A stretch of 64,000 nt of DNA. Origin: a virus. The notes below the pieces were generated by a model, which saw only the letters and a list, made by a program, of their open reading frames with translations, was not told where the DNA came from and searched no databases. The first letter of the stretch is position 1, and the number at the start of each line of letters is the position of its first letter. Both the position numbers and the translations under genes were made by a program. The DNA lies in IMG/VR virus record IMGVR_UViG_3300017963_000208, positions 1 through 64,000 of that record; one strand, 5' to 3'. This document shows, piece after piece, positions 2,646 through 14,688 of the stretch.

Positions 2646-2705
2646 CTAATGTACCACGCAACGTAGTGTGATAAAAAGAATTAGTAGCAGCAAAATAAAA
2701 CCCAT
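2646..2705 (-). CDS. 19-residue hydrophobic micropeptide
   Basis: The frame starts with an ATG that overlaps the stop of the upstream gene as TAATG. It encodes MGFILLLLILFITLRCVVH, almost wholly a membrane-length hydrophobic helix. The TAATG coupling and the tight fit between neighbours favour a real micro-gene. Its size means it could be chance, and no function is assigned. Confidence 0.4.
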   Translation of the reverse strand: MGFILLLLILFITLRCVVH

Positions 2706-3067
2706 TACTTCTTATTCTCCTTCATGTAGTCAACAGCATTGAAGAATCGTATATTGATCCCGTTGTTGCGGCAGACCTCTAAAAATTCATCCCACTCTAT
2801 ATAACCATCGTCACCTTCTTTGGTAGTGTACCTAAATCGGATCAAGGTTTCGCTGTTACGTTTGACACAGGAATCGCACTCCCCTTTTCGCAAGGTACGG
2901 GAAGCACACTTCTCACACTGTTTCGTAATGTCTAGAGAAAACCGATTACCCCTAAATCGTCCATACAATAAATAACCATCTATGGTCTTGGCGAATAACT
3001 GAGTGGGACATATACCACCAAAGTGGAAATGGTCTTTACTATCTGATCTTATGGTGAGGTTGATCAA
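2705..3067 (-). CDS. Zinc-ribbon protein with the shared YMK tail
   Basis: 120 aa. The start is TTG at 3067, overlapping the upstream stop as TTGA, with GGAG in reach. A four-cysteine knuckle pair (CEKCASR...CDSC) at about residues 51-69 should bind zinc. The protein has no KOW-type GD motif, but it ends FFNAVDYMKENKK, which matches the tail of the small KOW proteins. It therefore shows the tail on a different N-terminal domain, an argument that the tail is a separable module. Confidence 0.65.
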   Translation of the reverse strand: MINLTIRSDSKDHFHFGGICPTQLFAKTIDGYLLYGRFRGNRFSLDITKQCEKCASRTLRKGECDSCVKRNSETLIRFRYTTKEGDDGYIEWDEFLEVCRNNGINIRFFNAVDYMKENKK

Positions 3068-3249
3068 TTCTTTTTCTCCGAGACAGTGTAACGTCTATGG
3101 TTATTTTGGTGACCGTTAGAGCAGCACCACATCATTTTCTTTTTTCCCTTGAGAGGCACAACTAAGGTAGACACAGCCTCAGCATTACACTCAGCACATT
3201 GGTTATGAACAAACTGTTTAACTTTGGTTTGATGTTTTCTAGTCGCCAT
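3064..3249 (-). CDS. Small zinc-ribbon protein
   Basis: 61 aa with CAECN near residue 18 and WCCSNGH near residue 42, a compact CxxC...CCxxGH zinc-binding pattern. The rest is basic. The SD GGAGG precedes ATG. It overlaps both neighbours. Function unknown; nucleic-acid binding is likely from fold and charge but unproven. Confidence 0.6.
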   Translation of the reverse strand: MATRKHQTKVKQFVHNQCAECNAEAVSTLVVPLKGKKKMMWCCSNGHQNNHRRYTVSEKKN

Positions 3250-3682
3250 CTCTTGACCTCCCTAGAATCATGGCCGCACCACATTGACGGCAGGTTTTAG
3301 GTACATCCCTCAATCTTACTTTGACTGGATCAAAACTCAAATGGTGCGAGCAGTCATTGCTAGCGCACCGAAAAGTCATTTGCTTACCAGTGATATAGTT
3401 CCTTTCAATAGCCTGTGCTTCCTCCGGGGAAGGGGAGGGGGGAGACTGAACGGAGGGACTTTCTTCTATGATTAAAGGAGGTTCATGGTCTATGTCCTCA
3501 GTCTCCCCTAAATCTACTAAAGTTTCATTGATCATATCTAGCAGACATTGAGAATTGTTTTTGAAAGTTTTGGGCTCTTTATCAATGATTACATAACCAC
3601 AGTGGCGGCAGCGGTGGTTGCCCGAACCGTCAACAGTAAAGTGAGTAGACCCACAACCCATGCAGCGATTAATAATTTTCAT
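3239..3682 (-). CDS. Protein with two zinc ribbons
   Basis: 147 aa from the ATG at 3682, preferred over an upstream in-frame TTG because purine-rich SD sequence lies just before it. The N-terminal ribbon is CMGCGS...CRHCGY and the C-terminal ribbon is CASNDCSHH...CRQCGA, joined by a Pro/Ser/Glu-rich linker (SPSVQSPPSPSPEE). Ribbons of this type are common in small phage proteins of unknown role. It overlaps the downstream ribbon gene by 11 bases. Confidence 0.65.
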   Translation of the reverse strand: MKIINRCMGCGSTHFTVDGSGNHRCRHCGYVIIDKEPKTFKNNSQCLLDMINETLVDLGETEDIDHEPPLIIEESPSVQSPPSPSPEEAQAIERNYITGKQMTFRCASNDCSHHLSFDPVKVRLRDVPKTCRQCGAAMILGRSRDGD

Positions 3683-3836
3683 TGATTCGCTTCCTTTCCT
3701 CTTCAAGATTCATGGCGTGGAAGTATAGAATAGCCTGTTGATAATGATATCGAGCCACATGGATTGAGCCCTGCGCCTTGAACCTTTCAGCTAACTTTCT
3801 ATGGGTTAGCCATTTATGTTTGTTGTTTGTCTCCAC
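3669..3836 (-). CDS. Small helical protein, GTG start
   Basis: 55 aa, found by reading the gap between larger genes. The frame begins at GTG (3836) with GAAAGG upstream and runs to TAA at 3669, overlapping the next gene by 14 bases; its last codons supply that gene's purine-rich SD. The sequence (HRKLAERFKAQG, then HYQQAILYFHAMNLEEE) is amphipathic helix. No family recognised. Confidence 0.5.
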   Translation of the reverse strand: METNNKHKWLTHRKLAERFKAQGSIHVARYHYQQAILYFHAMNLEEERKRINENY

Positions 3837-3984
3837 CTTTCTTAAACCTTTCGTACAGCTTGTCTGCTGCTAATTCCAAAAATCTTTTCTTCTTTGGCGA
3901 AGTATTACCAGGAAAACCATACACATCATCCATTGCTTTCCTAATGATCTCTTTAACTTCGCTTATGTCTGATTTCTTGATCAT
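3814..3984 (-). CDS. Small basic helical protein
   Basis: 56 aa, read from the gap upstream of the double zinc-ribbon gene. It has the helix SDISEVKEIIRKAMDDVYG, a short loop and a second basic helix. The promoter at 3990-4018 would start transcription right at this ATG, which lacks an SD. An internal ATG at 3933 has AGGAAAG at good spacing and would give 39 aa. Which start is used is open. Confidence 0.5.
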   Translation of the reverse strand: MIKKSDISEVKEIIRKAMDDVYGFPGNTSPKKKRFLELAADKLYERFKKGGDKQQT

Positions 3985-3989
3985 ACTTC

Positions 3990-4018
3990 ATTCTATCAAA
4001 TGTCAACAGGTTTGTCAA
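3990..4018 (-). promoter_or_regulatory. sigma70-type promoter inside a gene end
   Basis: Minus strand TTGACA (4018-4013), 17 bases, TAGAAT (3995-3990). The -35 and spacer encode the final FDKPVDI residues of the gene 3996-4298. A second TTGACA (4006-4001) precedes TATGAT by 15 bases and may be an alternative. Confidence 0.6.
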
Positions 4019-4298
4019 ATTTATTTTTCCTAGTATTTTTCATATGCTGTATAGTAGAGGGTCTAAGAAGTTCCTCGGTAGTGGCCCCATTGATATCTAA
4101 ATAGCGTTTGCAACTAGGAGGAAGTTGCTGGTTGTCTAAAAATTTTATGCGATACACATTATCATTCCCTTCCTGTTCCCAATTTCCCTGACTAACTAAT
4201 TTGGTTACAGTGGCGGGAATGTGAAATGATTCGCAGTACCAACACCACACCATCACCTCATCCCCTGGAAAGTATTTCTGTTCAATGGGTTGGCTCAT
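3996..4298 (-). CDS. KOW/SH3-like small protein with YMK-type tail
   Basis: 100 aa. The GD of the KOW-type motif is at residues 12-13 (KYFPGDEVMVW), and a paired-cysteine WCWYC follows. The family tail appears as LRPSTIQHMKNTRK, but it is extended by NKFDKPVDI. The extension is the part that carries a promoter on the same strand, so its residues may be dictated by DNA function. It overlaps the zinc-binding gene upstream by 17 bases. Confidence 0.65.
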   Translation of the reverse strand: MSQPIEQKYFPGDEVMVWCWYCESFHIPATVTKLVSQGNWEQEGNDNVYRIKFLDNQQLPPSCKRYLDINGATTEELLRPSTIQHMKNTRKNKFDKPVDI

Positions 4299-4494
4299 CC
4301 TCTTCCTCTTGCAGTTCTTTTAATCTAGCTTCCATTTCTTCGGTAGTCATGTTTTTGACTCTTTCGTTGATCTCCCGAATACCTTTTTCCATAAAATCAT
4401 AATGCTCATGGCACAAATAAACCAAATCATCTCCAACTCTTATAATCCGGTTGGCGTGTTTAGAACAATTTTTGATTTGACAGGTTTTGCTCAT
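4282..4494 (-). CDS. Small zinc-finger-like protein with helical tail
   Basis: 70 aa. The Cys/His pattern CQIKNCSKHA...YLCHEHY (residues 5-32) is a compact zinc site, followed by a charged helix rich in Glu. It is coupled to the upstream gene by TAATG. Proteins of this shape occur in many phages without assigned role. Confidence 0.6.
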   Translation of the reverse strand: MSKTCQIKNCSKHANRIIRVGDDLVYLCHEHYDFMEKGIREINERVKNMTTEEMEARLKELQEEEDEPTH

Positions 4495-4652
4495 TAAATA
4501 CCCGCCAACTCGTAGGATTTCTTAAACATTTCGTAACAGAACTTCGCATGGCGCAAGGCTTTCTCACAATCATGGAGAATACCATAGTCACGAAACTTAA
4601 TCCACATCTTTTTAAAGGTAAGTGCCTGATAGTATGCTTCTATTCCTGTCAT
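4494..4652 (-). CDS. Small helical protein, unknown
   Basis: 52 aa from the ATG at 4652, which has GGGAGG eight bases upstream; the longer frame has no SD. The ATG overlaps the upstream stop as ATGA. The sequence is aromatic-rich helix (AYYQALTFKKMWIKF...FCYEMFKKSYELAG). It lies directly downstream of the promoter at 4676-4704. Confidence 0.6.
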   Translation of the reverse strand: MTGIEAYYQALTFKKMWIKFRDYGILHDCEKALRHAKFCYEMFKKSYELAGI

Positions 4653-4966
4653 TGTTTTTTCCTCCCTATTAATTGATCGTACCAAATTAATTCGCTCTTG
4701 TCAAATTCTTTTTTTACCTTATTTATCATACGGTTAAACTGCATTGTACGGATCGTATCTAGTCGATAATCGGTTAAGCACTCAACCTCTATTTGGTATA
4801 ACAAAGGAGGATTGTTCAGAAAAACTCTGGCTAAATGCTCACTTATATCATCCCCCACTGTCAATACATACATTTTATTTTCTTTTTCTGTCTCGGGTAG
4901 AGAGTAGAGAAATCGTACTTCCCACGATCTTTTCTCTGGCAAAATTCTGTAAACATTTACAATCAC
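4649..4966 (-). CDS. Unknown protein with an internal LDTIRTM motif
   Basis: 105 aa, GTG start overlapping the upstream stop as GTGA. The N-terminal 70 residues look like mixed alpha/beta. Residues about 73-80 (YRLDTIRTM) resemble the family tail of the KOW proteins, but about 25 residues follow, among them KKEFDKSELIW, which are encoded by promoter DNA. One reading is that an ancestral tail was extended when the promoter was fused to the gene end. No KOW motif is seen. Confidence 0.6.
   Translation of the reverse strand: MIVNVYRILPEKRSWEVRFLYSLPETEKENKMYVLTVGDDISEHLARVFLNNPPLLYQIEVECLTDYRLDTIRTMQFNRMINKVKKEFDKSELIWYDQLIGRKKQ
4676..4704 (-). promoter_or_regulatory. sigma70-type promoter inside a gene end
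   Basis: Minus strand TTGACA (4704-4699), 17 bases, TACGAT (4681-4676) preceded by TGG. It lies in the codons for EFDKSELIWYDQ of the gene 4649-4966. It shares the stretch CGAATTAA with the promoter at 123-152. Confidence 0.65.
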
Positions 4967-5436
4967 TTAGCCCACCCCGGTCTCTGTCTATTAGTCCACT
5001 GTGGCTTTCTCTTATCATTTTCCCACTTGTCTTTTAGACATAATCTGTAAGCCTTGAATATATTGAGCTCTTTTTTGAATTTAGTACAGTTAGGAAACAT
5101 AGTGATTTCATTAGACTCTGGCATGAACGCATAGCCGGCATAGAAAATCTCCAAATATTGCTTACACTTATGTGTTTTACCGTAACGAAAGTTATACTCA
5201 TCGCACAAGGCTCTGAAATGGTTTAATAACCACAGGTAGTTAGCTGCGTTAGTCCTTGTCCAGATTGCACAAGGATGGTTGACATGAGTGGGGCGATAGG
5301 GAGCATTAGTAGCCCCCATAACGTGCATAGCGGTAGAGAGCAACTGAGCAGATTCTAGACACATTTTGATCACTCGCTTGTTGTCCAGTACTCTAGCTGA
5401 CTTGTGAGCGTCTAAATATGTAACAAAGATGTTCAC
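4963..5436 (-). CDS. Pyrimidine-dimer-glycosylase-like protein
   Basis: 157 aa. It begins MNIFVTYLDAHKSARVLDNK and continues with RVIKMCLESAQLLSTAMH, HVNHPCAIWTRTN, NYLWLLNHF and EYNFRYGKTHK. This matches a phage family usually placed with the pyrimidine dimer DNA glycosylase/DenV fold (PF03013-like), recalled without a search. If active it would excise UV-damaged bases, but the family is poorly characterised and the phage version may act on other DNA. It sits among unrelated small genes with four-base overlaps. Confidence 0.6.
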   Translation of the reverse strand: MNIFVTYLDAHKSARVLDNKRVIKMCLESAQLLSTAMHVMGATNAPYRPTHVNHPCAIWTRTNAANYLWLLNHFRALCDEYNFRYGKTHKCKQYLEIFYAGYAFMPESNEITMFPNCTKFKKELNIFKAYRLCLKDKWENDKRKPQWTNRQRPGWAK

Positions 5437-5648
5437 GCCTTACCTCTCTTCATATATTCTATAGGAGAAACCACTTGTAATTCCCTGATGTTATCGGTTT
5501 CTACGACCCTTCCGGGGATAAACAAATCTCTCAGCAATACTCTACTAAACACATAGTTGATATCATATCTATATTCTATACGGCAGCCTTCGAAAGAGAA
5601 AAGGCATCCCTGGTAACTAACAATTTTGTTTTTTAGATTAATTACCAC
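5433..5648 (-). CDS. Small protein with YMK tail but no KOW GD motif
   Basis: 71 aa, GTG start with AGAGGG upstream. The body is beta-rich (SFEGCRIEYRYDINYVF) and lacks GDxV, but the end VVSPIEYMKRGKA fits the family tail. It is either a diverged member or an unrelated domain carrying the same tail. It overlaps both neighbours. Confidence 0.6.
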   Translation of the reverse strand: MVINLKNKIVSYQGCLFSFEGCRIEYRYDINYVFSRVLLRDLFIPGRVVETDNIRELQVVSPIEYMKRGKA

Positions 5649-5907
5649 TCTTTCCCTCTTTCATCATAGTCACTGTGTCTAATCCCTGAATATCCGTAGC
5701 ATTGATTCTACCCGTTAAATCACTCCATAAAAAACTCACATAAATAATTGAAAAGATTAGATTACCCTCAAGAGATACACCTTCTATTATATCAACTATT
5801 TCTGCTTTCTCTGTCCCGTGAGTATTATGGAAATAGGTACCAAAATCCACCTGAGAGTGCGGCCTGACAAGGATTCTGTCGCCCTTTTTGTATTTCTTGT
5901 TAGGCAT
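5638..5907 (-). CDS. KOW/SH3-like small protein with YMK-type tail
   Basis: 89 aa. The N-terminus KKYKKGDRILVR has GD at residues 9-10; strands follow, then the tail INATDIQGLDTVTMMKEGK. In the tail, M is doubled where most members have YM. The start ATG lies inside the end of the upstream paralogue. Confidence 0.65.
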   Translation of the reverse strand: MPNKKYKKGDRILVRPHSQVDFGTYFHNTHGTEKAEIVDIIEGVSLEGNLIFSIIYVSFLWSDLTGRINATDIQGLDTVTMMKEGKSGN

Positions 5908-6145
5908 ATCTTTTGTTTTTCATGTAGTAGAGGGTATTAAATCCTCTGATTTCATTTTCGTGCATTTCAATTTCTCCGTCAGCCCAGTCTGTAATCCAGT
6001 ATTTTGGAGACCAATCTCTTCGATCAATACCACGCTTTATGATAGTGGCCTCCCATCTCTGATCATACCATTCTATATCTACCCTATCCCCACATTTGTA
6101 TTTATATTTAGGTTTTGGTCTTTTCTTGCGCTTCTTTTTTCCCAC
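5900..6145 (-). CDS. KOW/SH3-like small protein with YMK tail
   Basis: 81 aa, GTG start with AAAAGGAA upstream. A very basic leader (GKKKRKKRPKPKYKYK) precedes GD at 19-20. Tryptophans and ITDWADGEIEMHENEI form the probable last strands, followed by the tail RGFNTLYYMKNKRYA. It lies just downstream of the promoter at 6183-6212. Confidence 0.65.
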   Translation of the reverse strand: MGKKKRKKRPKPKYKYKCGDRVDIEWYDQRWEATIIKRGIDRRDWSPKYWITDWADGEIEMHENEIRGFNTLYYMKNKRYA

Positions 6146-6395
6146 GATTTCTATTCCTTTTAACTTTCATCTGGTTTATTATATCATATCTAAGAATGTG
6201 TCTATCTGTCAAGTATTGACCCCACCCCATAACTTTATATTTTCTGGAATAAAGGGGCACTGACCCCGTATAAGAGTAATGTTCATAACCCGTTATTTGC
6301 TCATAGACTGATTCTATTTTGGTTCGTACCTCTGTAAGGTATGGAGGTATCCTTACCCACACCCAATCTCCCGCTTGATAGTTAGGTTTATTCAT
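6108..6395 (-). CDS. KOW/SH3-like small protein with extended YMK-type tail
   Basis: 95 aa. NYQAGDWVWVRI has GD at 9-10. The tail is RHILRYDIINQMKVKR and is extended by a basic stretch (NRNRGKKEAQEKTKT) that overlaps the start of the downstream paralogue by 38 bases, the longest overlap in the cluster. A promoter is embedded in its tail codons. Confidence 0.65.
   Translation of the reverse strand: MNKPNYQAGDWVWVRIPPYLTEVRTKIESVYEQITGYEHYSYTGSVPLYSRKYKVMGWGQYLTDRHILRYDIINQMKVKRNRNRGKKEAQEKTKT
6183..6212 (-). promoter_or_regulatory. sigma70-type promoter inside a coding region
   Basis: Minus strand TTGACA (6212-6207), 18 bases, TATGAT (6188-6183). It is wholly inside the 3' part of the gene 6108-6395, in the codons for YLTDRHILRYDI, and would drive the gene at 6145. 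Confidence 0.5.
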
Positions 6396-6951
6396 CTTCT
6401 AGACTCTTTTCTAATTTCTCCATGTTCTCTTCCGTGGCGTATTTAAAAGGAAACTTAGCCCACAAACGTACTGGATGGTACTGCTCACCACTGCTAGACT
6501 TCTTGCCAACCTTCATATTGGCGAATCTCTCACGCTTTGGGAGCTTTTTAGTGTTGAACCCTTTGTAGACCTCTAACACTTCCTTATCTAGGTCGATCAC
6601 GTAAGCGTATTCACAGAATAGAGAATCAGCAACAAAATCAATAGAGTTACATAAATCTCTAACATTACCACGACTTATCATTGATAGGATATCAGCAGCA
6701 GTATCTCTGCTAAATTCTGGGTACTTGGTGGGCCAAGCATCTCCTACTTTGTCAACTATTGCCTGTATATCCGCGTCCGATAGAAAGCTGCACTCCCTAA
6801 CTGACCACCGGAAATCCTCTAGATCCATTTCATTTTGTATAAAATCACAAATAGTTGCGCCCTGTCCAGTAGGGTATCCATCCCATTGCCCGTACTGAGC
6901 AACTTTGATCTTACCATCACAAACTACAGCGGTAATGTTCCTAGTTCCCAT
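6388..6951 (-). CDS. GTRN-type conserved phage protein, unknown function
   Basis: 187 aa. The N-terminus MGTRNITAVVCDGKIKVAQY, followed by GQWDGYPTGQG, is a pattern I associate with a conserved family found in phages and bacterial genomes, without known activity. The middle is helical (DADIQAIVDKVGDAWPTKYP), and YAYVIDLDKEVLEVYKG is a strand pair. No catalytic residues can be proposed with confidence. Confidence 0.7.
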   Translation of the reverse strand: MGTRNITAVVCDGKIKVAQYGQWDGYPTGQGATICDFIQNEMDLEDFRWSVRECSFLSDADIQAIVDKVGDAWPTKYPEFSRDTAADILSMISRGNVRDLCNSIDFVADSLFCEYAYVIDLDKEVLEVYKGFNTKKLPKRERFANMKVGKKSSSGEQYHPVRLWAKFPFKYATEENMEKLEKSLEDE

Positions 6952-7162
6952 TGTTTTTCCTCCACCCTTTTGGAATTTTTCTAGAAGTTTTATCTCTGTT
7001 ATTGTATAGAGAGATAGGGAATAAAATCAACGTCATAAAAAATCCAGCAATTATTTGGCGAGTATAATACCAATCTAACATCCTATTCCACTTAGGAATG
7101 GACAGCCCCAACCAAGCCCCGAAACCTACCAACAACCAACTAATTAACAGTAACTTAACCAT
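6941..7162 (-). CDS. Small protein with two membrane segments
   Basis: 73 aa. Hydrophobic helices lie at residues about 3-21 (LLLISWLLVGFGAWLGLSI) and 37-54 (IIAGFFMTLILFPISLY), joined by a short aromatic loop; the C-terminus is strongly basic and predicted cytoplasmic. A holin or other membrane-active role is possible, but nothing specific supports it here. Confidence 0.65.
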   Translation of the reverse strand: MVKLLLISWLLVGFGAWLGLSIPKWNRMLDWYYTRQIIAGFFMTLILFPISLYNNRDKTSRKIPKGWRKNNGN

Positions 7163-7370
7163 TTTTCCTCCCCTTCATATAACTTATTGTTTCTAAACGT
7201 AATTCATCCTCAAGGAAAAATAGTGAACAGTCCTCTAAGTAATACATATTAAAAGGTTTTCCAACTCTTTTGGATGATCTCTCTAACACAACCCCACGTA
7301 CAACTATGCCCTTATATTTCTCTTTGGCAATAACCTTATCACCTATTTTAAATTTATACTTATTTTTCAC
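7155..7370 (-). CDS. KOW/SH3-like small protein with YMK tail
   Basis: 71 aa, GTG start overlapping the end of the upstream paralogue. KYKFKIGDKVIAK has GD at 10-11, and GVVLERS is a second strand. The final strand FLEDEL runs straight into the tail RLETISYMKGRKNG. This is one of the cleanest family members and shows how the tail follows the last beta strand. Confidence 0.7.
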   Translation of the reverse strand: MKNKYKFKIGDKVIAKEKYKGIVVRGVVLERSSKRVGKPFNMYYLEDCSLFFLEDELRLETISYMKGRKNG

Positions 7371-7596
7371 GAATTGTATCCTTTTTATGTTTCAGAGTGG
7401 TAATAATATCTAATCCTGTTATTTCTCCCGGAAGCATTTTAATAGGGCTTGTCCAATGTTGCTTCTCTGGCAAAAACACACTGACCCTGTAAAATACTGT
7501 GTACTCACCGTGTTCTACCCCAGTAATATAGCCACTGAAGGTGTCACCGTACTTCACTATCACAAAATCCCCTTGTTTATATTCAGATTTAGTCAT
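7360..7596 (-). CDS. KOW/SH3-like small protein, tail variant TLK
   Basis: 78 aa. SEYKQGDFVIVKYGD has GD at 9-10. The tail reads GLDIITTLKHKKDTIREK, so the otherwise fixed methionine is leucine. This argues that the conserved Met is kept for its side chain, not as a start codon. It is the most upstream well-supported gene of the left cluster. Confidence 0.7.
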   Translation of the reverse strand: MTKSEYKQGDFVIVKYGDTFSGYITGVEHGEYTVFYRVSVFLPEKQHWTSPIKMLPGEITGLDIITTLKHKKDTIREK

Positions 7597-7690
7597 GGTT
7601 AGTTGTGCCTTTCATATCTTGTACCACCCTTTTTCCACGATTTAGGCCCTTTTTAGTCCTGTGTTTTTCATTGCTTTCTCCGCCGGCCAT
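7589..7690 (-). CDS. Possible 33-residue ORF ending in a VVQDMKG motif
   Basis: A 33-codon frame, very basic in its N-terminal two thirds, ends KRVVQDMKGTTNHD and overlaps the start of the next gene. The end resembles the family tail without any KOW domain. No SD is seen before the ATG at 7690, so this may be chance or the remnant of a family member. Confidence 0.25.
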   Translation of the reverse strand: MAGGESNEKHRTKKGLNRGKRVVQDMKGTTNHD

Positions 7691-7935
7691 ATATGACCAT
7701 ACGTGACCATATATGGTAGGTATGCCACTATATATGACATGACACTATACCTGCAAGCGCCATGCCAACCTAAGCCGGCTTGCATAAAGCGTGCCAAAGC
7801 TAGAGCTCTTGCAAGGTCCGTGCCAAGGTCAACCTAATGGCCTAACACTAAACCGCTAGGCCTAACCCTACCCTAACACGGTAACACGTACCCTTGCCAC
7901 TCCCTATAAATAATTATATAGGGGAATTTTACCCC
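7684..7935. repeat. Non-coding segment with palindromes and three 16-bp elements
   Basis: No convincing gene. It contains a 9-bp inverted repeat around 7687-7716 (CCATATATG...CATATATGG), three copies of TGCAW-N6-TGCCA at 7752-7767, 7781-7796 and 7810-7825, and CCCTATA...TATAGGG around 7902-7923. The same 16-bp element recurs four times at 11.6-12.1 kb. An operator array or replication origin are both possible. Confidence 0.6.
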
Positions 7936-7964
7936 TTGCAATTGTCAATAAATAGTGTTATGAT
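7936..7964 (+). promoter_or_regulatory. Promoter for the ArdC operon
   Basis: TTGCAA (7936-7941), 17 bases, TATGAT (7959-7964), about 40 bases before the ArdC start, which has GAAAGGGG as SD. Confidence 0.65.
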
Positions 7965-8003
7965 CAAAAGACACAAGCAAAAGACTAATGAAAGGGGTAA
8001 GTT

Positions 8004-8882
8004 ATGAGCCAGAAAGTTTTTGAAATCGTAACCAATAGGATAATTGACCAATTAGAACAAGGGGTTATACCATGGCGCAAGCCTTGGAAAAATTCCCGCC
8101 CACCGTGTAACCTGCTTTCTGGCAAGCCTTACAGGGGCATTAATGCCCTTGTATGCTTTCTAACTACCTTTAAAGAGGGGTTTAGTTCACCATTTTGGTT
8201 GACGTTTAAACAAGCCAAGCGGTTAGGCGGTAGTGTCAAGAAAGGCGAAAAGGGCACTCCTATTGTATTCTGGAAGTGGATCAACGGCACTGATAAGGAT
8301 ACAGGCAGGGAAAAAACCTTTCCTTGTGTCCGATATTATACCGCTTTTAACCTGGATCAATGCGAAAACATACCAGAAAGCAAAATTCCACAAGACAAAG
8401 GCCTTGATTTCAAACCGATTGAACAGGCGGAAAAACTTGTTTCAGAATGGTTAGGCAAGCCTGAAATCAGGCATAGCGGCAATATGGCCTGTTATTCCCC
8501 CGCGCTAGATTTCATTAACCTACCGGACCCTAACCGCTTTAAATCGGTTGAGGGGTATTATTCCACCTTGTTTCACGAATTGACGCATAGCACTGGCCAC
8601 CCTAACCGCTTAGGTAGGTTTGAACAAAACGCGGTTAATGGTTTTGGCTCTGATAGCTATAGCAAAGAGGAGCTGATAGCAGAAATTGGCGCGGCTCTGT
8701 TATGTATGCAATGCGGAATTGATAGCGCGGACCTACACCAAAACCAAGCGGCTTACGTGCAAAACTGGTTAAGGGCTCTTAAAGATGATAGGCGCTTGCT
8801 AGTCAATGCGGGACAAGCGGCACAAAAAGCGGTTGACCTTATCAACGGCACCAAACATAAGAAAGGGCCTAGCAATGAATAA
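8004..8882 (+). CDS. ardC: ArdC-like antirestriction protein
   Basis: 292 aa. The N-terminal half has the ArdC N-domain signature: IIDQLEQGVIPWRKPW, GKPYRGINALV and KQAKRLGGSVKKGEKG, an ssDNA-binding fold. The C-terminal half carries the zincin motif HELTH at residues 191-195 (HELTHSTGH) and EELIAEIGAALLC further on, as in ArdC proteins of plasmids and phages. ArdC of plasmids protects incoming DNA from type I restriction; that role is transferred by family here. It is the first gene of a four-gene rightward operon with its own promoter. Codon use (AGC, GCG, GGC) differs from the AGA/GGA-rich neighbours, suggesting acquisition from elsewhere. Confidence 0.9.
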   Translation: MSQKVFEIVTNRIIDQLEQGVIPWRKPWKNSRPPCNLLSGKPYRGINALVCFLTTFKEGFSSPFWLTFKQAKRLGGSVKKGEKGTPIVFWKWINGTDKDTGREKTFPCVRYYTAFNLDQCENIPESKIPQDKGLDFKPIEQAEKLVSEWLGKPEIRHSGNMACYSPALDFINLPDPNRFKSVEGYYSTLFHELTHSTGHPNRLGRFEQNAVNGFGSDSYSKEELIAEIGAALLCMQCGIDSADLHQNQAAYVQNWLRALKDDRRLLVNAGQAAQKAVDLINGTKHKKGPSNE

Positions 8883-9066
8883 AGATAGCTGGATCGAGGC
8901 AAGGGAAAATCTACTAATGGAAAGGGTTAACTCTTTAGAGGCAAAGCTAAACCGTTGTCTTGAACAATGGGAAATTGACGCTATAGAGGATAGCCTAACC
9001 GAAAACGATATAGTTAACGAGTATAGCGCCATGGTTGATTATACTTTTGAACTATTGAGGGGGTAA
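8875..9066 (+). CDS. Small helical protein of the ArdC operon
   Basis: 63 aa from the ATG at 8875, which overlaps the end of ardC by eight bases and has GAAAGGG upstream; a longer frame back to 8806 lies inside ardC and is not preferred. The sequence is Glu-rich helix (ARENLLMERVNSLEAKLNR), probably a coiled coil. No family known. Confidence 0.6.
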   Translation: MNKDSWIEARENLLMERVNSLEAKLNRCLEQWEIDAIEDSLTENDIVNEYSAMVDYTFELLRG

Positions 9067-9068
9067 CA

Positions 9069-9800
9069 ATGATTAAACTAAGCCACAATAACAAAAAGGT
9101 TAGTAAGTTAGACGCGGTTAGTTTTGGTATTCAGGCCTTTGCTATCCCCTTTGATATCCTGAAAATGTTTATCAACCGCTTGCCTATTGATACCGAGGCA
9201 AAGCTAGGGGCCTTTGAAAACGTCCACCTTGAGACAAAGCAAAAGACCATTGACAATCAAACCCATTGCCTAACTTGCCCTAGTGCGGGCGCTTGCGGCT
9301 CTGTATGCTATGCCTTGCAAGGGTCCTATAGGTGGAATGTAGTTAAAGCGGCTAGGGCCTGGAATACCGCTTGCACTTTTCTTGATAACTTTGCTTTTCA
9401 TATGACTAAGGCATTGACAAAGGTTAAAAGGCCTATTGTCCGGATACATGATAGCGGCGATTTTTATTCGCTCCGCTACTTCCAGCAATGGGTTAAGGTT
9501 GCAAAGGCCTTGCCGCAAAAGACGTTCTATGCCTATACCAAAAGCCTAATATTTGTCGATTTCAATGCTTTGCCTGATAACTTCAAACTGGTACAATCCC
9601 AAGGGGGAAAACATGACCACTTGTTAAACCCCCTAAAGCCTATAGCGCGTATATTTGAAAGCAGGGAGGCCCTAGAAAAAGCTGGTTTCACCTATGGCAA
9701 TGAAAATGATCTACCAGCAATTCAGGGGGTAAAGCGTATAGGCCTAGTGTACCACGGCACCAAAAAACTAACAGACCAACAAAGGCAATATTTCAAATAG
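9069..9800 (+). CDS. Gp88-like conserved phage/plasmid protein
   Basis: 243 aa. Residues about 66-80 read HCLTCPSAGACGSVCYALQG, a cysteine cluster as in the family named after mycobacteriophage gene product 88; RIHDSGDFYS, FYAYTKS and LPDNFKLVQSQGG follow in the family order. The biochemical role is unknown; the cysteines suggest a metal or Fe-S site. It lies two bases after the small helical gene, in the ArdC operon, so a role in DNA entry or plasmid-like functions is possible but inferred. Confidence 0.7.
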   Translation: MIKLSHNNKKVSKLDAVSFGIQAFAIPFDILKMFINRLPIDTEAKLGAFENVHLETKQKTIDNQTHCLTCPSAGACGSVCYALQGSYRWNVVKAARAWNTACTFLDNFAFHMTKALTKVKRPIVRIHDSGDFYSLRYFQQWVKVAKALPQKTFYAYTKSLIFVDFNALPDNFKLVQSQGGKHDHLLNPLKPIARIFESREALEKAGFTYGNENDLPAIQGVKRIGLVYHGTKKLTDQQRQYFK

Positions 9801-9811
9801 GAGTTAACCCC

Positions 9812-10093
9812 ATGAAAAACAAAAAACGCGGACCATATATTGACAACAAAGCAGAGCGGCAAGCTTTCTACCGTGACGCGCAATGGAATAAAAACTATAG
9901 AGAGCAAAACCGTTGCAAGGCTAGTGATAACCAACCTACCGCTTCACCTATGCAAAAACCGCCTATGCCATGTAGTCAATGCGGCGGTAAAGTAGTCAAG
10001 GGCCTGTTTAGGTACGCTTGCCCTACTTGCCACCCTTTCCACTTCCAAAAATGCGGTATATGCGGTGCAAAGCGCCTTTGGTGTTGCTGCTAG
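9812..10093 (+). CDS. Basic zinc-ribbon protein
   Basis: 93 aa. The first half is highly basic and disordered-looking. The second half holds CSQCGGK, ACPTCHPFHF, KCGICGAK and a terminal CCC, that is, at least two zinc knuckles. It is the last gene before the terminator at 10124. Likely a nucleic-acid-binding accessory of the operon; function not known. Confidence 0.65.
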   Translation: MKNKKRGPYIDNKAERQAFYRDAQWNKNYREQNRCKASDNQPTASPMQKPPMPCSQCGGKVVKGLFRYACPTCHPFHFQKCGICGAKRLWCCC

Positions 10094-10123
10094 GCCTTTA
10101 CCCCTTTAGCCTAGTTAGCAGCT

Positions 10124-10162
10124 AAGGCCCCTAGTTATTGCTTGGCTAGGGGCCTTTCTTTA
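10124..10162 (+). terminator. Rho-independent terminator after the ArdC operon
   Basis: AAGGCCCCTAG pairs perfectly with CTAGGGGCCTT across an 11-base loop, followed by TCTTT. It ends the four-gene rightward operon. Confidence 0.9.
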
Positions 10163-10298
10163 TGATTTCAACCACTTAAATGTTGCTCAGATTGCTTTCT
10201 AAGGGCCTTAAATGGTCTTAGGTATGCTAGGGTACCAGGGGCCTTGAAAAAATCGCTTACAAGCCAAAATAGAGAGCCATAGGACTAGCGGCAAGGCA

Positions 10299-10335
10299 AA
10301 GGAAAGGGGGTTAAGCATTGCACCTAACCCCCTAG
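10299..10335 (-). terminator. Rho-independent terminator for the leftward mini-operon
   Basis: On the minus strand AGGGGGTTA pairs with TAACCCCCT, followed by TTCCTTT. It closes the two small minus-strand genes. Between 10163 and 10298 I see no gene, only facing terminator space. Confidence 0.85.
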
Positions 10336-10356
10336 TGTAAAGCAAAGCGGCTAAGG

Positions 10357-10458
10357 CTAATAACCAGCCTTGACTATACGCTTTGCCCTAGTCAAATTGT
10401 TGCGGCGTAGCCTGATAACCACTAGCCAATGTTTCAACCTATCAATCAACCTTTGCAT
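10357..10458 (-). CDS. 33-residue basic peptide
   Basis: A frame of 33 codons starting at an ATG nine bases after the stop of the gene upstream, with GGGGGAAA as SD. The peptide is amphipathic and basic (LIDRLKHWLVVIRLRRNN). It is enclosed by a promoter at 10662 and a terminator at 10299, which supports it being expressed. Confidence 0.5.
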   Translation of the reverse strand: MQRLIDRLKHWLVVIRLRRNNLTRAKRIVKAGY

Positions 10459-10467
10459 GGTTTCCCC

Positions 10468-10629
10468 CTAGTCCTGCCTTACGATAACCCTACGCTTGCC
10501 ATTGATAGTCACGATATCAAGGCGCTTGCTAGGCTTGTTTGACTGGTTATCGCTTGCCTTGTCTTTGTCTTGTTTCCTGATAACCTTCGCTTTGTCGCTG
10601 GTTATGATTATTAGGCCTTGTTTGCTCAT
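10468..10629 (-). CDS. 53-residue basic protein, unknown
   Basis: Starts at the ATG at 10629 with AAAGGGG seven bases upstream, the same SD as ardC. It has a short hydrophobic strand (GLIIITSD), a Lys/Asp-rich middle and a second strand pair DIVTINGKRRVIVRQD, a likely small beta fold. It is the first gene behind the minus-strand promoter at 10662-10689. Confidence 0.6.
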   Translation of the reverse strand: MSKQGLIIITSDKAKVIRKQDKDKASDNQSNKPSKRLDIVTINGKRRVIVRQD

Positions 10630-10661
10630 TGTCTAACCCCTTTGTTTGTCGGTATACTTCG

Positions 10662-10689
10662 ATCATACCAGAAAAAGGGAAAATGTCAA
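10662..10689 (-). promoter_or_regulatory. Strong leftward sigma70-type promoter
   Basis: Minus strand TTGACA (10689-10684), 16 bases, TATGAT (10667-10662) preceded by TGG. It is divergent from, and ten bases apart from, the 18-bp box of the HNH gene. Confidence 0.75.
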
Positions 10690-10698
10690 TAAAAACTA

Positions 10699-10728
10699 TT
10701 TAACTATGTATAAGTAGCCACCTATAAT
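10699..10728 (+). promoter_or_regulatory. 18-bp box, copy 1, before the HNH gene
   Basis: TTTAACTATGTATAAGTA (10699-10716), six bases, TATAAT (10723-10728). TTAACT and TATAAT are 17 bases apart, a possible -35/-10, but the whole spacer is conserved too. If TATAAT were the -10, the start site would fall after the SD, so TATAAG inside the box may be the true -10. Confidence 0.6.
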
Positions 10729-10742
10729 AGGGAGTAAAAAAC

Positions 10743-11231
10743 ATGAGTGAAAATAAACTAGAGAAAATCAGGCAACATATTGAAAACACAGTGGGCTTGC
10801 ATAAATTTCTTGATAATTTCTTAGCCAATTTCAAGCGGGAATGTAAAAGAGAAGAAAGAGAGCGCAATAAGTGGCTGAAAAAACAAAGCAGCAAGCCGCA
10901 AAAGCCTTGGACTGGAAAGGCCTTTCAAGCTAGGTTTACCTATGCCAAAAAACAAGCTAGGGAGAGAAGCATTAAATGGACCTTAACAGATAAACAGTAT
11001 TATCAATTGGTTGAAAAGGCTTTATGTTCCTATTGCGGTTACCCCTTAGCAGGTAAAGGAGTGGAATTAGATCGAATAAATAGCAAAGGCATATATGAAA
11101 CAAACAACGTAACCCCCTGTTGTGGTCTATGTAACATGACTAAGGCGCGGGATAAATTTAGTTATAGAGAGATGTTAGACCATATAGGTCCATCCATATC
11201 GAAAGTCAAATACCTACGTGATAAAAAATAG
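10743..11231 (+). CDS. HNH endonuclease
   Basis: 162 aa. The first 85 residues are basic helix; the nuclease core follows: LCSYCGYPL (zinc knuckle, about residue 95), ELDRINSKGIYETNNVTP (the beta-beta part, with Asp-Arg where many have DH) and CCGLCNMTK (about residue 125). This arrangement matches phage HNH proteins with a structural CxxC pair. It may be free-standing or packaging-linked; since it is far from the terminase, a homing or host-DNA role is more likely, by inference. Confidence 0.85.
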   Translation: MSENKLEKIRQHIENTVGLHKFLDNFLANFKRECKREERERNKWLKKQSSKPQKPWTGKAFQARFTYAKKQARERSIKWTLTDKQYYQLVEKALCSYCGYPLAGKGVELDRINSKGIYETNNVTPCCGLCNMTKARDKFSYREMLDHIGPSISKVKYLRDKK

Positions 11232-11329
11232 TCAAATGAACATTTTGCCCTATTTCCATTAATCTAATAATATCCACAACATACCTACAATACAAAATAC
11301 CCGTGTAATCTACCTACTTAGTGAATATT

Positions 11330-11353
11330 AAAGGGAAATTTAGTTTTCCCTTT
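11330..11353. terminator. Hairpin with AT tails after the HNH gene
   Basis: AAAGGGAAA pairs with TTTTCCCTTT across a short loop. On the plus strand it is followed by CGAG, on the minus strand by TTTAATATT, so it may terminate in either direction but is not a textbook terminator for the HNH gene. Confidence 0.5.
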
Positions 11354-12313
11354 CGAGAGCTCGTCTATGGCATAAAATGCGTTAACTTTTGCCGGCAACG
11401 GCCGGCCAATTAAGGGGCTTTATTCCAGGCGGGACAAGCAAAGGCCTAGCAGGTAGATCAAACCCCCCTTACAAGCCAAATAAGAGCCCTATAGGTATAC
11501 ATATAGAGCCCTATACAGGCCTAGTTAGTTATTGGGTTACATACAGATAAGGTTAGGTGGTTAGTTATTGGGGTAGTAGGGTGGAAATACGGGTTGCAAG
11601 ACCCATGCCAACTCTCTATATATCTCAGAATAATTATACCCCTTACCCTATATATACCCCTATATAGGTATATATTGACTACCCTATATGACACTATATG
11701 GCTATCAGTGCTATTAGCCCGCCCCTGCAAGACCTATACCACCATATACGTAACTATAGTTACTAATATATACCCATATATTAATAAATCAGTGTATTTA
11801 TAACTATTGATTATTATGTGATTAAATGCTGGTACTCCACCGATAGAGTAAGCAAGATATATACCAACATAATGGCATAGATATTGAATGGCTATGCAAC
11901 CTTTGTGCCAGAGCTCGCGGGCCTAGATAGAGAACTATAGTTACCCAATGCAATTAATATACCAATGTAGTTATATAGAATGGTACATATATTGCAATAA
12001 ATTAAAATGACCATATATGGATATACATGTATATAGGGGTATGGTAATGTAAAGGGGTACGGTGCTATATGCAAAGACCGTGCCATGGCTCCATCCGGTA
12101 AATCACACACAAACCTAATTTAACCAACTGAACAAATATTCATACTCTATATGGGTCATAAAATAACCCAATTAAGGAATCTATTTGGGTCATTGAGAGA
12201 AGTACCAAAAACCGAGGGGAACAAATATTCAAACCCAGTAAAAATAATCATGAAGAAAAACCCAATGATTTCAAGACTAGGTTAAAACTAGAGTGCTTTT
12301 CGTATAATTATTA
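11354..12313. repeat. Long non-coding AT-rich region with four 16-bp elements and palindromes
   Basis: About 1 kb without a believable gene; short frames here have biased repetitive translations and no SD. It holds TGCAA-N6-TGCCA elements at 11595-11610, 11726-11741 (one mismatch), 11895-11910 and 12070-12085. There is a perfect 14-bp palindrome GTAACTATAGTTAC at 11750-11763 with its core repeated at 11933-11942. TGACCATATATGG near 12010 is shared with the region at 7.7 kb, and a 13-bp direct repeat GAACAAATATTCA lies at 12130 and 12219. A possible TTGCAA-17-TATATA promoter lies at 11594-11622. Confidence 0.6.
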
Positions 12314-12343
12314 TTTAACTATGTATAAGTACGCTACTATAAG
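12314..12343 (+). promoter_or_regulatory. 18-bp box, copy 2, before the right small-gene cluster
   Basis: TTTAACTATGTATAAGTA (12314-12331), six bases, TATAAG (12338-12343), followed by AGAGGGGG and the first gene at 12364. The box is identical to copies 1 and 3. Confidence 0.65.
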
Positions 12344-12363
12344 TAGAGGGGGAAAATAAGAAC

Positions 12364-12651
12364 ATGAGAGACTTAATAGATAAAGCTGACCATATATTGA
12401 GAAATAGTCATAGATTTAACGTGGGAGATAAGGTTAAATTTAGAATATCAGATGAAGCTGGAGCTAGAATAGTAAGGGGCAAAGTGCGGCGTGTAGAGAT
12501 AAATTATTTGTGGTCTGGTGTCTATGAAATAGAATTAGATAACCCCTGGGATAAGATATACAAGGACGAGGCTCCTAGAAATACTATGATGATAAGAGAG
12601 GACGTACTCACATTGGATACTTTAGACTATATGAGAAAGAATAAGAAATGA
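12364..12651 (+). CDS. KOW/SH3-like small protein with YMR tail
   Basis: 95 aa, the first gene of the right cluster. A short helix (LIDKADHILRN) precedes RFNVGDKVKFRI (GD at 21-22). Strands around GKVRRVEINYLWSGVYEIEL follow, then VLTLDTLDYMRKNKK ends the protein. The next gene starts inside its stop as ATGA. Confidence 0.75.
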   Translation: MRDLIDKADHILRNSHRFNVGDKVKFRISDEAGARIVRGKVRRVEINYLWSGVYEIELDNPWDKIYKDEAPRNTMMIREDVLTLDTLDYMRKNKK

Positions 12652-12848
12652 GATTCGAGGTCGGGGATAAGATCAAATTCAAGTGGGGTAAAGGCCATAT
12701 GGTTGGTACCCTATCTAAGTATATAGGTGAAGACTACTGGTGGGTGTTATTTACAGATGGGTGTTTTGACAGGTGTATAGAGATGAGAGGCTACATGTTC
12801 TCCCACGCCAACCCAGTGACTTATATGAGACGTAAGAGGGAAGGATGA
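12648..12848 (+). CDS. KOW/SH3-like small protein with YMR tail
   Basis: 66 aa, the shortest member. MRFEVGDKIKFKW has GD at 6-7; GTLSKYIGEDYWWVLFTDG forms the strands; the tail SHANPVTYMRRKREG lacks the usual LDT but keeps YM and basic residues. It is coupled to both neighbours by ATGA overlaps. Confidence 0.75.
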   Translation: MRFEVGDKIKFKWGKGHMVGTLSKYIGEDYWWVLFTDGCFDRCIEMRGYMFSHANPVTYMRRKREG

Positions 12849-13129
12849 GTAAATTCGAGCCAGGCGATATAGCTATACATGAGTACCTAAGCATCAGGCA
12901 GAGAGGAGACTTGCCAGATACACTAGAGATACATTGTGAGTGGGTAGCGGATAGAGTAGAGATTATTAAAGAAGCTACGGGGGAGAATCCACACTTAAGT
13001 AACTATTATCGGGATGGCCTTTACTTTGTTTGTAATAAAGACGGAAAGGCTTATATGGTTCCTGTCCAAGAGTTGAGATTGGACGTCGTTAACACTATGA
13101 GACGGAGAAAAGAATCTCGTGAGCAATAA
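12845..13129 (+). CDS. KOW/SH3-like small protein with TMR tail
   Basis: 94 aa. SKFEPGDIAIHEY has GD at 7-8 and an unusually long middle (RQRGDLPDTLEIHCEW...). The tail is VQELRLDVVNTMRRRKESREQ. It ends across the GTG start of the next gene. Confidence 0.7.
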   Translation: MSKFEPGDIAIHEYLSIRQRGDLPDTLEIHCEWVADRVEIIKEATGENPHLSNYYRDGLYFVCNKDGKAYMVPVQELRLDVVNTMRRRKESREQ

Positions 13130-13346
13130 TAAGTATAAGTTAGGTGATAGGGTTAGATTTAATAGTCAGGGGCTTAAAGGAGTAGGGGTAGTGGTGGCTA
13201 TTTCTCAATTTGCTCCAGATTGTTATGTGGTTCAAGGCCCGCCCCGAGCGGGTGGTCGCGGCCTCCGGATAGACTTACACGAGAAAGAAATGGAATACAG
13301 CGTAATTGGATACATGGTAAGGAAGAAGAATGGGCTGGAAACCTAA
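13119..13346 (+). CDS. KOW/SH3-like small protein with YM tail
   Basis: 75 aa, GTG start inside the preceding gene. NKYKLGDRVRFNS has GD at 9-10; VGVVVAISQFAPDCYVVQG gives two strands. The tail EYSVIGYMVRKKNGLET has Val where others have K/R directly after M. Confidence 0.7.
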   Translation: MSNNKYKLGDRVRFNSQGLKGVGVVVAISQFAPDCYVVQGPPRAGGRGLRIDLHEKEMEYSVIGYMVRKKNGLET

Positions 13347-13578
13347 GTTACACCTATTTCAATTAGGAGACAGGGTAAACTTTAGTTACCTAGGTAGAAA
13401 GGTAACGGGGAAGATTATAGGTATAAGGCCCACTAAATCTCCTTATTCTGGATTCCCCTTATTTCAAGAGTATACGGTAGAATTCTCGGATGGCCCCCGC
13501 ATGAATATGTGCTACTGCAAAGAAAGTGACCTTATGCTGGCAGATACTATAGAGTATATGAAAAGGAAGAAACAGTGA
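13330..13578 (+). CDS. KOW/SH3-like small protein with YMK tail
   Basis: 82 aa. LHLFQLGDRVNFSY has GD at 13-14; KVTGKIIGIRPTKSP and YTVEFSDG follow the SH3-like strand order. The tail is LADTIEYMKRKKQ. The start ATG lies 17 bases before the end of the upstream gene. Confidence 0.7.
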   Translation: MGWKPKLHLFQLGDRVNFSYLGRKVTGKIIGIRPTKSPYSGFPLFQEYTVEFSDGPRMNMCYCKESDLMLADTIEYMKRKKQ

Positions 13579-13805
13579 AATATAAGGTAGGAGACAAGAT
13601 TAAGCTGTCTACGGGGTACGAGTTTAACCCCCAGGTTTATATTGGAACGGTGGTCAAGGAGCCTACCAAGAAGAATAATCTATACCTAATAGAGTTCAAG
13701 GCAGACGAAAGAGGGACCCAGAGGATATACCTAACCGCCGAACAAATACAGCCCTTGAATGTGATGACCTATATGAAAAGGCTTAAGAAATCTCAGACTG
13801 ATTAA
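13575..13805 (+). CDS. KOW/SH3-like small protein with YMK tail
   Basis: 76 aa, GTG start overlapping the upstream stop as GTGA; the upstream tail codons AAAAGGAAGAAA serve as SD. KYKVGDKIKLS has GD at 6-7, and YLIEFKADERG is a strand pair. The tail is IQPLNVMTYMKRLKK. About 85 bases without a gene follow before the next SD. Confidence 0.7.
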   Translation: MKYKVGDKIKLSTGYEFNPQVYIGTVVKEPTKKNNLYLIEFKADERGTQRIYLTAEQIQPLNVMTYMKRLKKSQTD

Positions 13806-13890
13806 AATAGTCGGCTCAGAACACTAGAGAGCCATATTTCGACCCTATTTTGGCTTAAAAAGACCTGAGTAATACCGGAGGATACCCCAA

Positions 13891-14127
13891 ATGATTAAGA
13901 AAATCACTAAAATCACAGAAGTCGAAGAAATTCGGACAGTTAGTATTACCTGTGACGTGTGTCAGAAAAAGATTACTCCGGACGATATTTGGGAGTGGCA
14001 AGAGATATATTTCGTGGTTTTCACGGGTGGCTACGGTTCTGTGTTTGGAGACGAGACTAAGGTGAGGTGTGAAATCTGTCAACACTGTCTCAAGAAGCTT
14101 ATAGGACCATATTGCCGCTATGAATAA
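13891..14127 (+). CDS. Small zinc-ribbon protein
   Basis: 78 aa with GGAGG ahead of ATG. CDVCQKK at about residue 21 and CEICQHCLKK at about 57 form a treble-like zinc site, with FTGGYGSVFGDE between them. I have seen this arrangement in phage and bacterial proteins of unknown function. It interrupts the run of KOW genes, as the zinc-ribbon genes do in the left cluster. Confidence 0.65.
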   Translation: MIKKITKITEVEEIRTVSITCDVCQKKITPDDIWEWQEIYFVVFTGGYGSVFGDETKVRCEICQHCLKKLIGPYCRYE

Positions 14128-14392
14128 ATATCAAAAGAAGGATAGGGTCAAGGTTAGGGTGCTGATGCCCCAGAAAGAACCAGGAGTAGCTCGGGGTGAA
14201 AGATGGGTGTCGGGGGAAGTACTGGCCGTAGAACACAATGATTTATTCAATGATTCCTACATCGTATATGTAAAACCCAAGGCTGAGGATAAGTTTCCCT
14301 TCCCGGTGAATATGGCAGCTCCCATACTACACGTAGGTCCAGAGAATTTAAAAAGAGACGTTATAGAGCATATGAGGAAGAATAAGAAATGA
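14120..14392 (+). CDS. KOW/SH3-like small protein with HMR tail
   Basis: 90 aa. MNKYQKKDRVKVRV is the KOW start with Gly replaced by Lys before Asp 8. Strands GERWVSGEVLAVEHND and SYIVYVKPK follow, and the tail is ENLKRDVIEHMRKNKK. The last five residues RKNKK are identical to those of the first gene of the cluster. Confidence 0.7.
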   Translation: MNKYQKKDRVKVRVLMPQKEPGVARGERWVSGEVLAVEHNDLFNDSYIVYVKPKAEDKFPFPVNMAAPILHVGPENLKRDVIEHMRKNKK

Positions 14393-14688
14393 GTAAAGAC
14401 GATATCTTAGAAGATCTCAAGGATGTGTGTGAGGACTCCAGACACCCCTATTTAAAGAAACCTAGATTCTATAGGGTTGTAAATAAAGGTAAAAAGCCGT
14501 GTCCTAGCAGTCGGAATGGCCTCCATTACCCCGATAAGTTGGAGTGGGGCGTAGACCTGAGAGACCATATGGTAGACCTGTGGTGTGGAGATTGCGGTAA
14601 GAAATTCAGAAAGATACCCTTTAGGGACCTACCTGAAGAGTGGAAAGACCAGATAAATAAGACGTTGGAGGAATCTATTGATGACTAA
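14389..14688 (+). CDS. Small protein with one zinc knuckle pair
   Basis: 99 aa coupled by ATGA to the gene before. A helix-rich N-terminus is followed by KKPCPSSRNGLHYPDKLEWG and WCGDCGKKFRKIPF, likely one zinc site, then an acidic helix. No known family. Confidence 0.6.
   Translation: MSKDDILEDLKDVCEDSRHPYLKKPRFYRVVNKGKKPCPSSRNGLHYPDKLEWGVDLRDHMVDLWCGDCGKKFRKIPFRDLPEEWKDQINKTLEESIDD

Follow-up and report, generated by a model that had tools for sequence, protein, structure and literature searches.

About one fifth of the small proteins (29 of 133) of the phage represented by IMG/VR virus record IMGVR_UViG_3300017963_000208 end in the same short peptide, here called the tail. It is a basic, N-capped C-terminal segment with the consensus (D/N/S)-(T/V/I)-(I/L/V)-x-(Y/T)-M-(K/R)-x-x-(K/R). 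The stretch under study, the window, consists of positions 1-64000 of the 107,565-base record. The favoured reading, held at a little under even odds, takes the tail for a portable docking helix at the C-terminus, through which all carriers reach the same partner. The carriers are presumed to be expressed early, 'early' being taken from gene position alone, just as docking and the single partner are presumed.

Genes were called as greedy open reading frames (ORFs), not by a trained gene finder, and are referred to by their lower coordinate. In 33 aligned tails, numbered with the methionine as 0, position -5 is D, N or S in 27, -4 is T, V or I in 27, -3 is I, L or V in 30 and -1 is Y or T in 26. 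Methionine itself is present in 32, K or R at +1 in 29 and K or R at +4 in all 33, although the selection of these rows by eye and with a motif pattern exaggerates the figures for 0, +1 and +4. Hydrophobic residues thus occupy -3 (I/L/V) and 0 (Met), often -6 and -4 too, and basic residues +1 and +4.

The tail is recovered by searches that have a control. A 15-column hidden Markov model (HMM), built from the 15 tails of the window only, was run on the 584 ORFs of at least 40 amino acids in the whole record. Above 7 bits it found 10 non-seed ORFs, where 20 residue-shuffled sets averaged 0.15; above 9 bits it found 7, where they averaged 0.05. This comparison with shuffled sequences had been named as a check in the initial annotation of the window, and the tail comes through it. 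In the 10 new members the match always lies within 12 residues of the C-terminus. An unsupervised position weight matrix (PWM) search of the last 25 residues of the 133 gene calls under 200 amino acids arrived at the same motif, with 29 sites and a score of 391.8; three shuffles of those 133 scored 135, 101 and 93. The same PWM search did not rise above its own shuffles in two stretches of phage T4 (123 genes, about 99 of 169 kb) or in Aeromonas phage phiA047 (188 genes). Nor did an extended tail profile exceed 7 bits in any of 489 T4 ORFs (best 6.2) or 717 phiA047 ORFs (best 6.8).

In the phage itself, the extended profile (tail2) scores 40 ORFs above 7 bits. Of these, the record itself contains 33; the other 7 lie in an extension of it provided by contig G005. 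This count is partly circular, as tail2 was trained on hits, whereas the comparison of the HMM with shuffled sets (10 against 0.15) is not. Four of the 40 are weak or internal matches (2289, 4649, 88632 and 106728). The initial annotation placed the family at 2705-14392; a shared tail is indeed found there, but the family reaches far outside, to 70.7-71.7, 77.5, 90.8, 96.8 and 103-107 kb of the record and to the seven ORFs of the extension. A tail-bearing paralogue of 12845-13129, 42% identical, lies 90 kb away at record positions 102976-103269. The structural region is free of the tail, with none among 52 plus-strand gene calls at 15.4-66.3 kb compared with 28 of 133 calls elsewhere. For genes under 200 amino acids the figures are 0 of 24 inside this region and 28 of 107 outside (Fisher p 0.002). 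A virion-packaging signal, one of the roles first suggested, was rejected on the empty structural region; co-packaging of non-structural proteins is possible.

As a docking tag, the tail would form a helix beginning after the D/N/S N-cap, with its hydrophobic residues at -3 and 0 and its basic residues at +1 and +4. In an infected cell it would bring dozens of the phage's small proteins to a single partner that they share. Their bodies, which are for the most part SH3 barrels of the Tudor/KOW-like type, would diversify and turn over fast while the tag is kept or exchanged within its class. Owing to the overlap between genes, the basic part with its purine-rich codons would also supply the Shine-Dalgarno sequence of the next gene.

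Judged from the codons used, selection on the tail appears to act mainly at the amino-acid level. The nucleotide information at third codon positions of the 33 tails is near that of synonymous resampling in most columns; in this codon-level check, which had been proposed at the outset, third positions are mostly as the amino acids predict and not as a Shine-Dalgarno alone would have them. Downstream starts were sought for 46 tails (the 33 aligned, 6 weaker or internal, and 7 of the close relative G002). In 37 of the 46, an ORF of at least 30 codons begins out of frame 4-44 nucleotides from the Met, and the distance is exactly 16 or 17 nucleotides in 20 of the 37 (18 of 30 excluding G002). With the Met so far ahead of the next start, the basic codons double as its Shine-Dalgarno. 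Shine-Dalgarno-like matches overlap these purine-rich codons, where that of the next gene is expected, in line with the initial annotation. Its further statement, that this does not account for the LDTI part of the tail, also stands. Behind tail genes, 18 of 30 pairs have the element (Y/T/H)-ATG-RR at 10-30 nucleotides ahead of the following start, a figure that is high partly by construction; behind tail-less genes it is 1 of 85 pairs, which is the informative half. The element therefore tracks the reading frame of the tail, not the start.

The best-surviving alternative, although an unlikely one, is a nascent peptide that acts in cis. The motif would lie in the exit tunnel while the ribosome is on the next start region, and slowing there would favour handover to, or re-initiation on, the overlapping gene. 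The recurring distance of 16-17 nucleotides is consistent with this, being held across overlaps that span 4-47 nucleotides at tail genes, as are the mainly peptide-level constraint and the proportion of overlapping pairs, 25 of 30 behind tail genes against 60 of 85 others. However, a Shine-Dalgarno inside the basic codons would give the same spacing, and 60 of the 85 tail-less pairs overlap, with the element in a single one of the 85. Of the 46 tails, nine are not followed by a start of the kind sought. Weak or internal matches make up five of them (2289, 4649, 106728, 88632 and L043:9821), but clear tails, too, are retained where no ORF of at least 30 codons begins within 44 nucleotides, at 3996, 13575 and 105909. 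Behind 3996 the next start of such an ORF is 59 nucleotides from the tail Met; behind 2705 the sole ORF that starts has 19 residues and begins 20 nucleotides past the Met. An arrest peptide linked to the stop codon was rejected, the distance from Met to stop ranging from 18 to 99 nucleotides across the 33 aligned tails.

The bodies that carry the tail were classed with a KOW profile of 13 members from which the tails had been cut off. It has 20 hits at E<0.03, 13 of them its own members, and all 20 carry the tail. Weaker hits, up to E 1, are the carrier 102976 (0.39) and the tail-less 84297, 27589, 97310 and 68781 (E 0.17-0.9). Nine C-terminal carriers fall outside the profile, at 2705, 5433, 77473, 90848, 105285, 105909 and 106442 of the record and at 4343 and 7541 of locus L134, which belongs to the same phage. 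They match it only at E>1 and form no blastp pair with another carrier at 0.01, although blastp is insensitive even inside the KOW group (13 pairs in total among 40 bodies). The most that can be said of these nine bodies is that they have no detectable relation to the KOW/Tudor barrel. A KOW regular expression labels L134:7541 as KOW, but this expression is loose. The same gene, as L043:7019-7480, matches phiA047_0155 of Aeromonas phage phiA047 over residues 24-80 (50.8% identity, E 7e-7), and this homologue ends without a tail. In at least one case, therefore, the tail sits on a body that is known without it. The same terminal motif is then found on different bodies, represented by the nine non-profile carriers, within the limited sensitivity of the searches, and by the one tail-less homologue; the original description of bodies that diverge while the tail stays agrees with this. 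The placing of 2705 and 5433 on other domains was also part of that description. Both have E>1 in the KOW profile, but that profile overlooks some carriers that are KOW-like by eye, and the model of 5433 is poor.

The AlphaFold2 model of 13330 is an SH3-like barrel with a mean predicted local distance difference test (pLDDT) score of 76 and strands at 15-20, 23-36, 43-54 and 57-64, plus a two-residue strand at 69-70. Its top structural matches are mostly Tudor, chromobarrel, PWWP and KOW (NusG KOW) domains, with a VIA-align Z of up to 8.5, which is middling, and a best Foldseek E of 0.0093, none being under 0.001. This is the one confidently modelled member on which the SH3-like barrel rests. 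Profile matches of the bodies to Agenet/Tudor, L19 and NusG chains are weak (best E 0.045). No curated family was matched among 18 members, the best Pfam E of 0.013 and the best PHROG E of 0.024 being to other or unnamed families. The tail is predicted to be a short helix, which begins one residue past the N-cap position in both AlphaFold2 models. In 5433 this helix (62-70) has a block pLDDT of 71; the rest of that model is poor (mean 44.5) and the body cannot be judged from it.

It is improbable that the tail is no more than the closing helix of the SH3-like fold, passed down to paralogues. The presence of a tail on all 20 of the firm body-profile hits would fit, as would the placing of the helix after the final strands, but the bodies of nine carriers go undetected by the profile, one such body has a tail-less homologue and the confidence of the helix is below that of the barrel. 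Little credence is likewise given to a non-specific basic amphipathic helix that binds membrane or nucleic acid with no specific partner. The composition of the tail is amphipathic and basic, as this would need, but the Met at 0 in nearly every tail, albeit among motif-selected rows, suggests a specific pocket.

Comparison with G002 indicates how the tail genes change between close relatives. In G002, 12364 and 12648 are fused, gene 12845 is absent, as it is in the relative G003, and 12648 has a chimeric tail that finishes with the end of the 12845 tail. The body of 13119 is kept (56 of 61 codons identical) with its tail swapped for a different member of the class, DTIDYMKYMRRKR. Two additional KOW-tail genes are present, and the orthologue of 13575 overlaps another tail gene that the window lacks. 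Behind 13575 the Shine-Dalgarno-like codons differ between G002 and the window, with YMKRxKK kept. When window positions 12400-14700 are compared with positions 3848-6800 of locus L045, small overlapping genes are seen to be gained, lost and fused and tails to be exchanged between close relatives, with crossovers that fall, by eye, in about 8-11 nucleotides of shared sequence.

A DNA-level element alone, whether Shine-Dalgarno, promoter or recombination seam, with the peptide as a by-product, is very improbable: Shine-Dalgarno-like matches do overlap the basic codons, a crossover in G002 lies in tail DNA between 12648 and 12845 and the tail codons of 13330 are identical in G002, silent sites too, but third positions are largely free among the 33 tails, and 84 of 85 other gene starts are without the element. 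As to promoters, the pattern TTGGAY...TAYATG was rejected by eye, its 9-nucleotide spacing being unfit for sigma-70.

Several observations weigh against the docking tag. Codon bias exceeds that of resampling at the first position of the Leu at -6 (z 4.2) and the third of -3 (2.6), and further exceptions at a z of at least 2 are the first of +1 and the third of +3 (z 2.1) and the first of -2 (z 2.0). The spacing from Met to next start is tighter (standard deviation 4.6) than that from Met to own stop (10.3), which suits a role in cis too, so that the tail may affect translation of the next gene. The clear C-terminal tails that have no downstream start of an ORF this long within reach number just three, those of 3996, 13575 and 105909, and 2705 is followed by its 19-residue ORF. 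Between the window and G002, the last 16 codons of 13330 have no changes at all, silent sites included, and those of 14120 have 7 amino-acid changes with the tail class kept; in three neighbouring genes taken as controls the changes number 2, 6 and 3. This comparison of orthologous sequences gives no clear sign of extra conservation of the tail. The body profile overlooks four carriers that by eye resemble KOW proteins (70751, 70980, 71218 and 96810), so that the nine 'other' bodies may still be related to the KOW group. Lastly, the tail helix of 13330 (73-81) has a block pLDDT of 59 and 51, below that of the barrel.

The docking tag nevertheless remains the favoured reading. A partner to which the tag docked many different proteins would be a hub of central importance, in the host or in the phage. 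With the tag as bait that partner could be isolated, and functions could be assigned to dozens of ORFans together. The case would also show how a phage acquires new effectors, by exchanging the bodies attached to one constant address, and how one stretch can be selected as both peptide and ribosome-binding site. A more ambitious form of the idea, possible though doubtful, is a genome-wide addressing code in which about a fifth of the small proteins, of several folds, present one C-terminal helix to a single hub. New effector bodies would then become functional by recombining onto the tag, whose codons would also be the ribosome-binding site of the next gene.

All 15 small ORFs of the initial annotation were located, and they end as it described. 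Eight are on the minus strand. Of these, 2705-3067 encodes 120 amino acids with Cys pairs, has no KOW profile match and ends in NAVDYMKENKK, and 5433-5648 encodes 71 amino acids in which KOW was not detected, with the tail SPIEYMKRGKA. The others are KOW/Tudor-like: 3996-4298 (tail STIQHMKNTRK), 5638-5907 (DTVTMMKEGK), 5900-6145 (NTLYYMKNKR), 6108-6395 (DIINQMKVKR, then a basic extension), 7155-7370 (ETISYMKGRK) and 7360-7596 (DIITTLKHKK). In the last, Leu takes the position of the Met, as had been noted; the codon is CTG. The seven on the plus strand are all KOW/Tudor-like: 12364-12651 (DTLDYMRKNK), 12648-12848 (NPVTYMRRKR), 12845-13129 (DVVNTMRRRK), 13119-13346 (SVIGYMVRKK), 13330-13578 (DTIEYMKRKK, with the modelled barrel and terminal helix), 13575-13805 (NVMTYMKRLKK, retained without a following start) and 14120-14392 (DVIEHMRKNK). 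Internal tails had been assigned to two further minus-strand genes, and matches are present in both, TTEYMKGKK in 2289-2636 and DTIRTMQ in 4649-4966, but they are weak (7.9 and 7.8 bits). By eye, 2289-2636 and 14678-15007, on opposite strands, are apparently distant paralogues; the former has its internal tail-like segment and the latter ends in a degenerate tail, SEMREIKGKNK.

Contigs G001 and G005 are from the same phage (99.99% identity over 20.0 kb and 99.995% over 19.3 kb). G005 runs more than 10 kb past the start of the record, which is therefore a fragment; this extension has no blastn match to the record. Structural and terminase genes occupy the plus strand at about 15-66 kb. From 66 to 107 kb the minus strand carries most of the genes seen, among them RecA-, dUTPase- and polymerase-like ones recognised by eye. 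Relatives were found through TerL, at 90% identity in G002, G003 and G004 and 61% in G006, with additional contigs at 35-39%. Against 50,697 phage records TerL has 1187 matches, all below 60% identity and at 26-29% among the 15 matches listed; the 13330 protein has no tblastn match in the same records. A search for TerL relatives in GTDB contigs gave 133 matches to the patterns used, none confirmed, and a pattern search for relatives of the DNA polymerase in IMG/VR gave 1 match, unconfirmed.

Other features of the window were seen by eye. Between the divergent gene arrays, 10200-12300 has few convincing genes, an HNH-like ORF (10743-11231) and TA-rich, repeat-looking sequence, and is a possible origin or regulatory region. 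A similar internal block (DDGTNPAVTFEF / NDGSNPAVTFEF and onward) is shared by two structural-region proteins that otherwise differ, at 19832-20752 and 48442-51327. Three neighbouring proteins at 38658, 39919 and 40605 have like starts (MARS...VDA.E.FRF.V and variants) and are perhaps tube-like. Three long proteins in succession, at 51327, 55028 and 56701, have beta-helix-looking repeats and are possibly tail fibres or depolymerases.

Isolated tails, one per locus, may be present in other phages. IMG/VR was searched with four exact degenerate tail patterns, which returned 22, 19, 16 and 17 stretches and would overlook more distant tails. Outside this phage group 41 ORFs (13 + 28) have the motif in frame, and in 13 of the 41 it lies within 7 residues of the C-terminus (loci L047, L060, L067, L087, L089, L095, L096, L099, L108, L112, L114, L115 and L130), several of the 13 being copies of one protein. 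The search for the tail apart from the KOW domain that was initially proposed thus finds C-terminal cases elsewhere, but these exact patterns brought up no locus with several tails outside the group. Among L084-L135, L134 alone has more than one ORF above 7 bits; no locus outside the group among L046-L067 has more than one above 6 bits, and L007-L025, which have a distant TerL in common, have no ORF above 6 bits. The short tail profile has one match each in G007 and G008 and none in phiA047. A literature search with narrow full-text terms found no terminal tail common to so many small proteins of one phage.

Mimicry of the C-terminus of FtsZ was considered and rejected. The E. coli FtsZ sequence LDIPAFLRKQA scores -5.2 with the tail matrix, which is inside the non-tail range and above its mean; 53 of the phage's own proteins over 200 amino acids have a mean of -9.7 and a maximum of 4.0, and one tail scores 32.3.

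Many of the bodies share their fold with KOW/Tudor SH3-like domains, such as NusG KOW, ribosomal L19, the PHF1 Tudor domain and the N-terminal domain of T4 MotB. PMC7827196 describes MotB as an early protein of the phage, predicted to have a KOW domain at its N-terminus. This likeness concerns the bodies, and the fold is uninformative on the tag; the T4 ORFs of at least 40 amino acids in two stretches, motB included, have tail scores under 7 bits.

Translational coupling of overlapping genes through an intragenic Shine-Dalgarno is known, and the basic codons of the tail can serve the next gene in this way. However, the D-T-I-x-Y-M peptide is unnecessary for such coupling, and the many tail-less pairs that overlap are almost all without the element.

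Short terminal address peptides are also known, including the cargo-loading peptides of encapsulins, the encapsulation peptides of microcompartments and the N-terminal capsid-targeting sequence of T4. As in those systems, one short terminal peptide is borne by many different proteins; there, one partner is addressed. Unlike them, the carriers here lie outside the structural region, and the likeness is one of description. By this analogy the tail would be a short terminal address peptide of a known general kind, with a minority chance that it is something more distinct.

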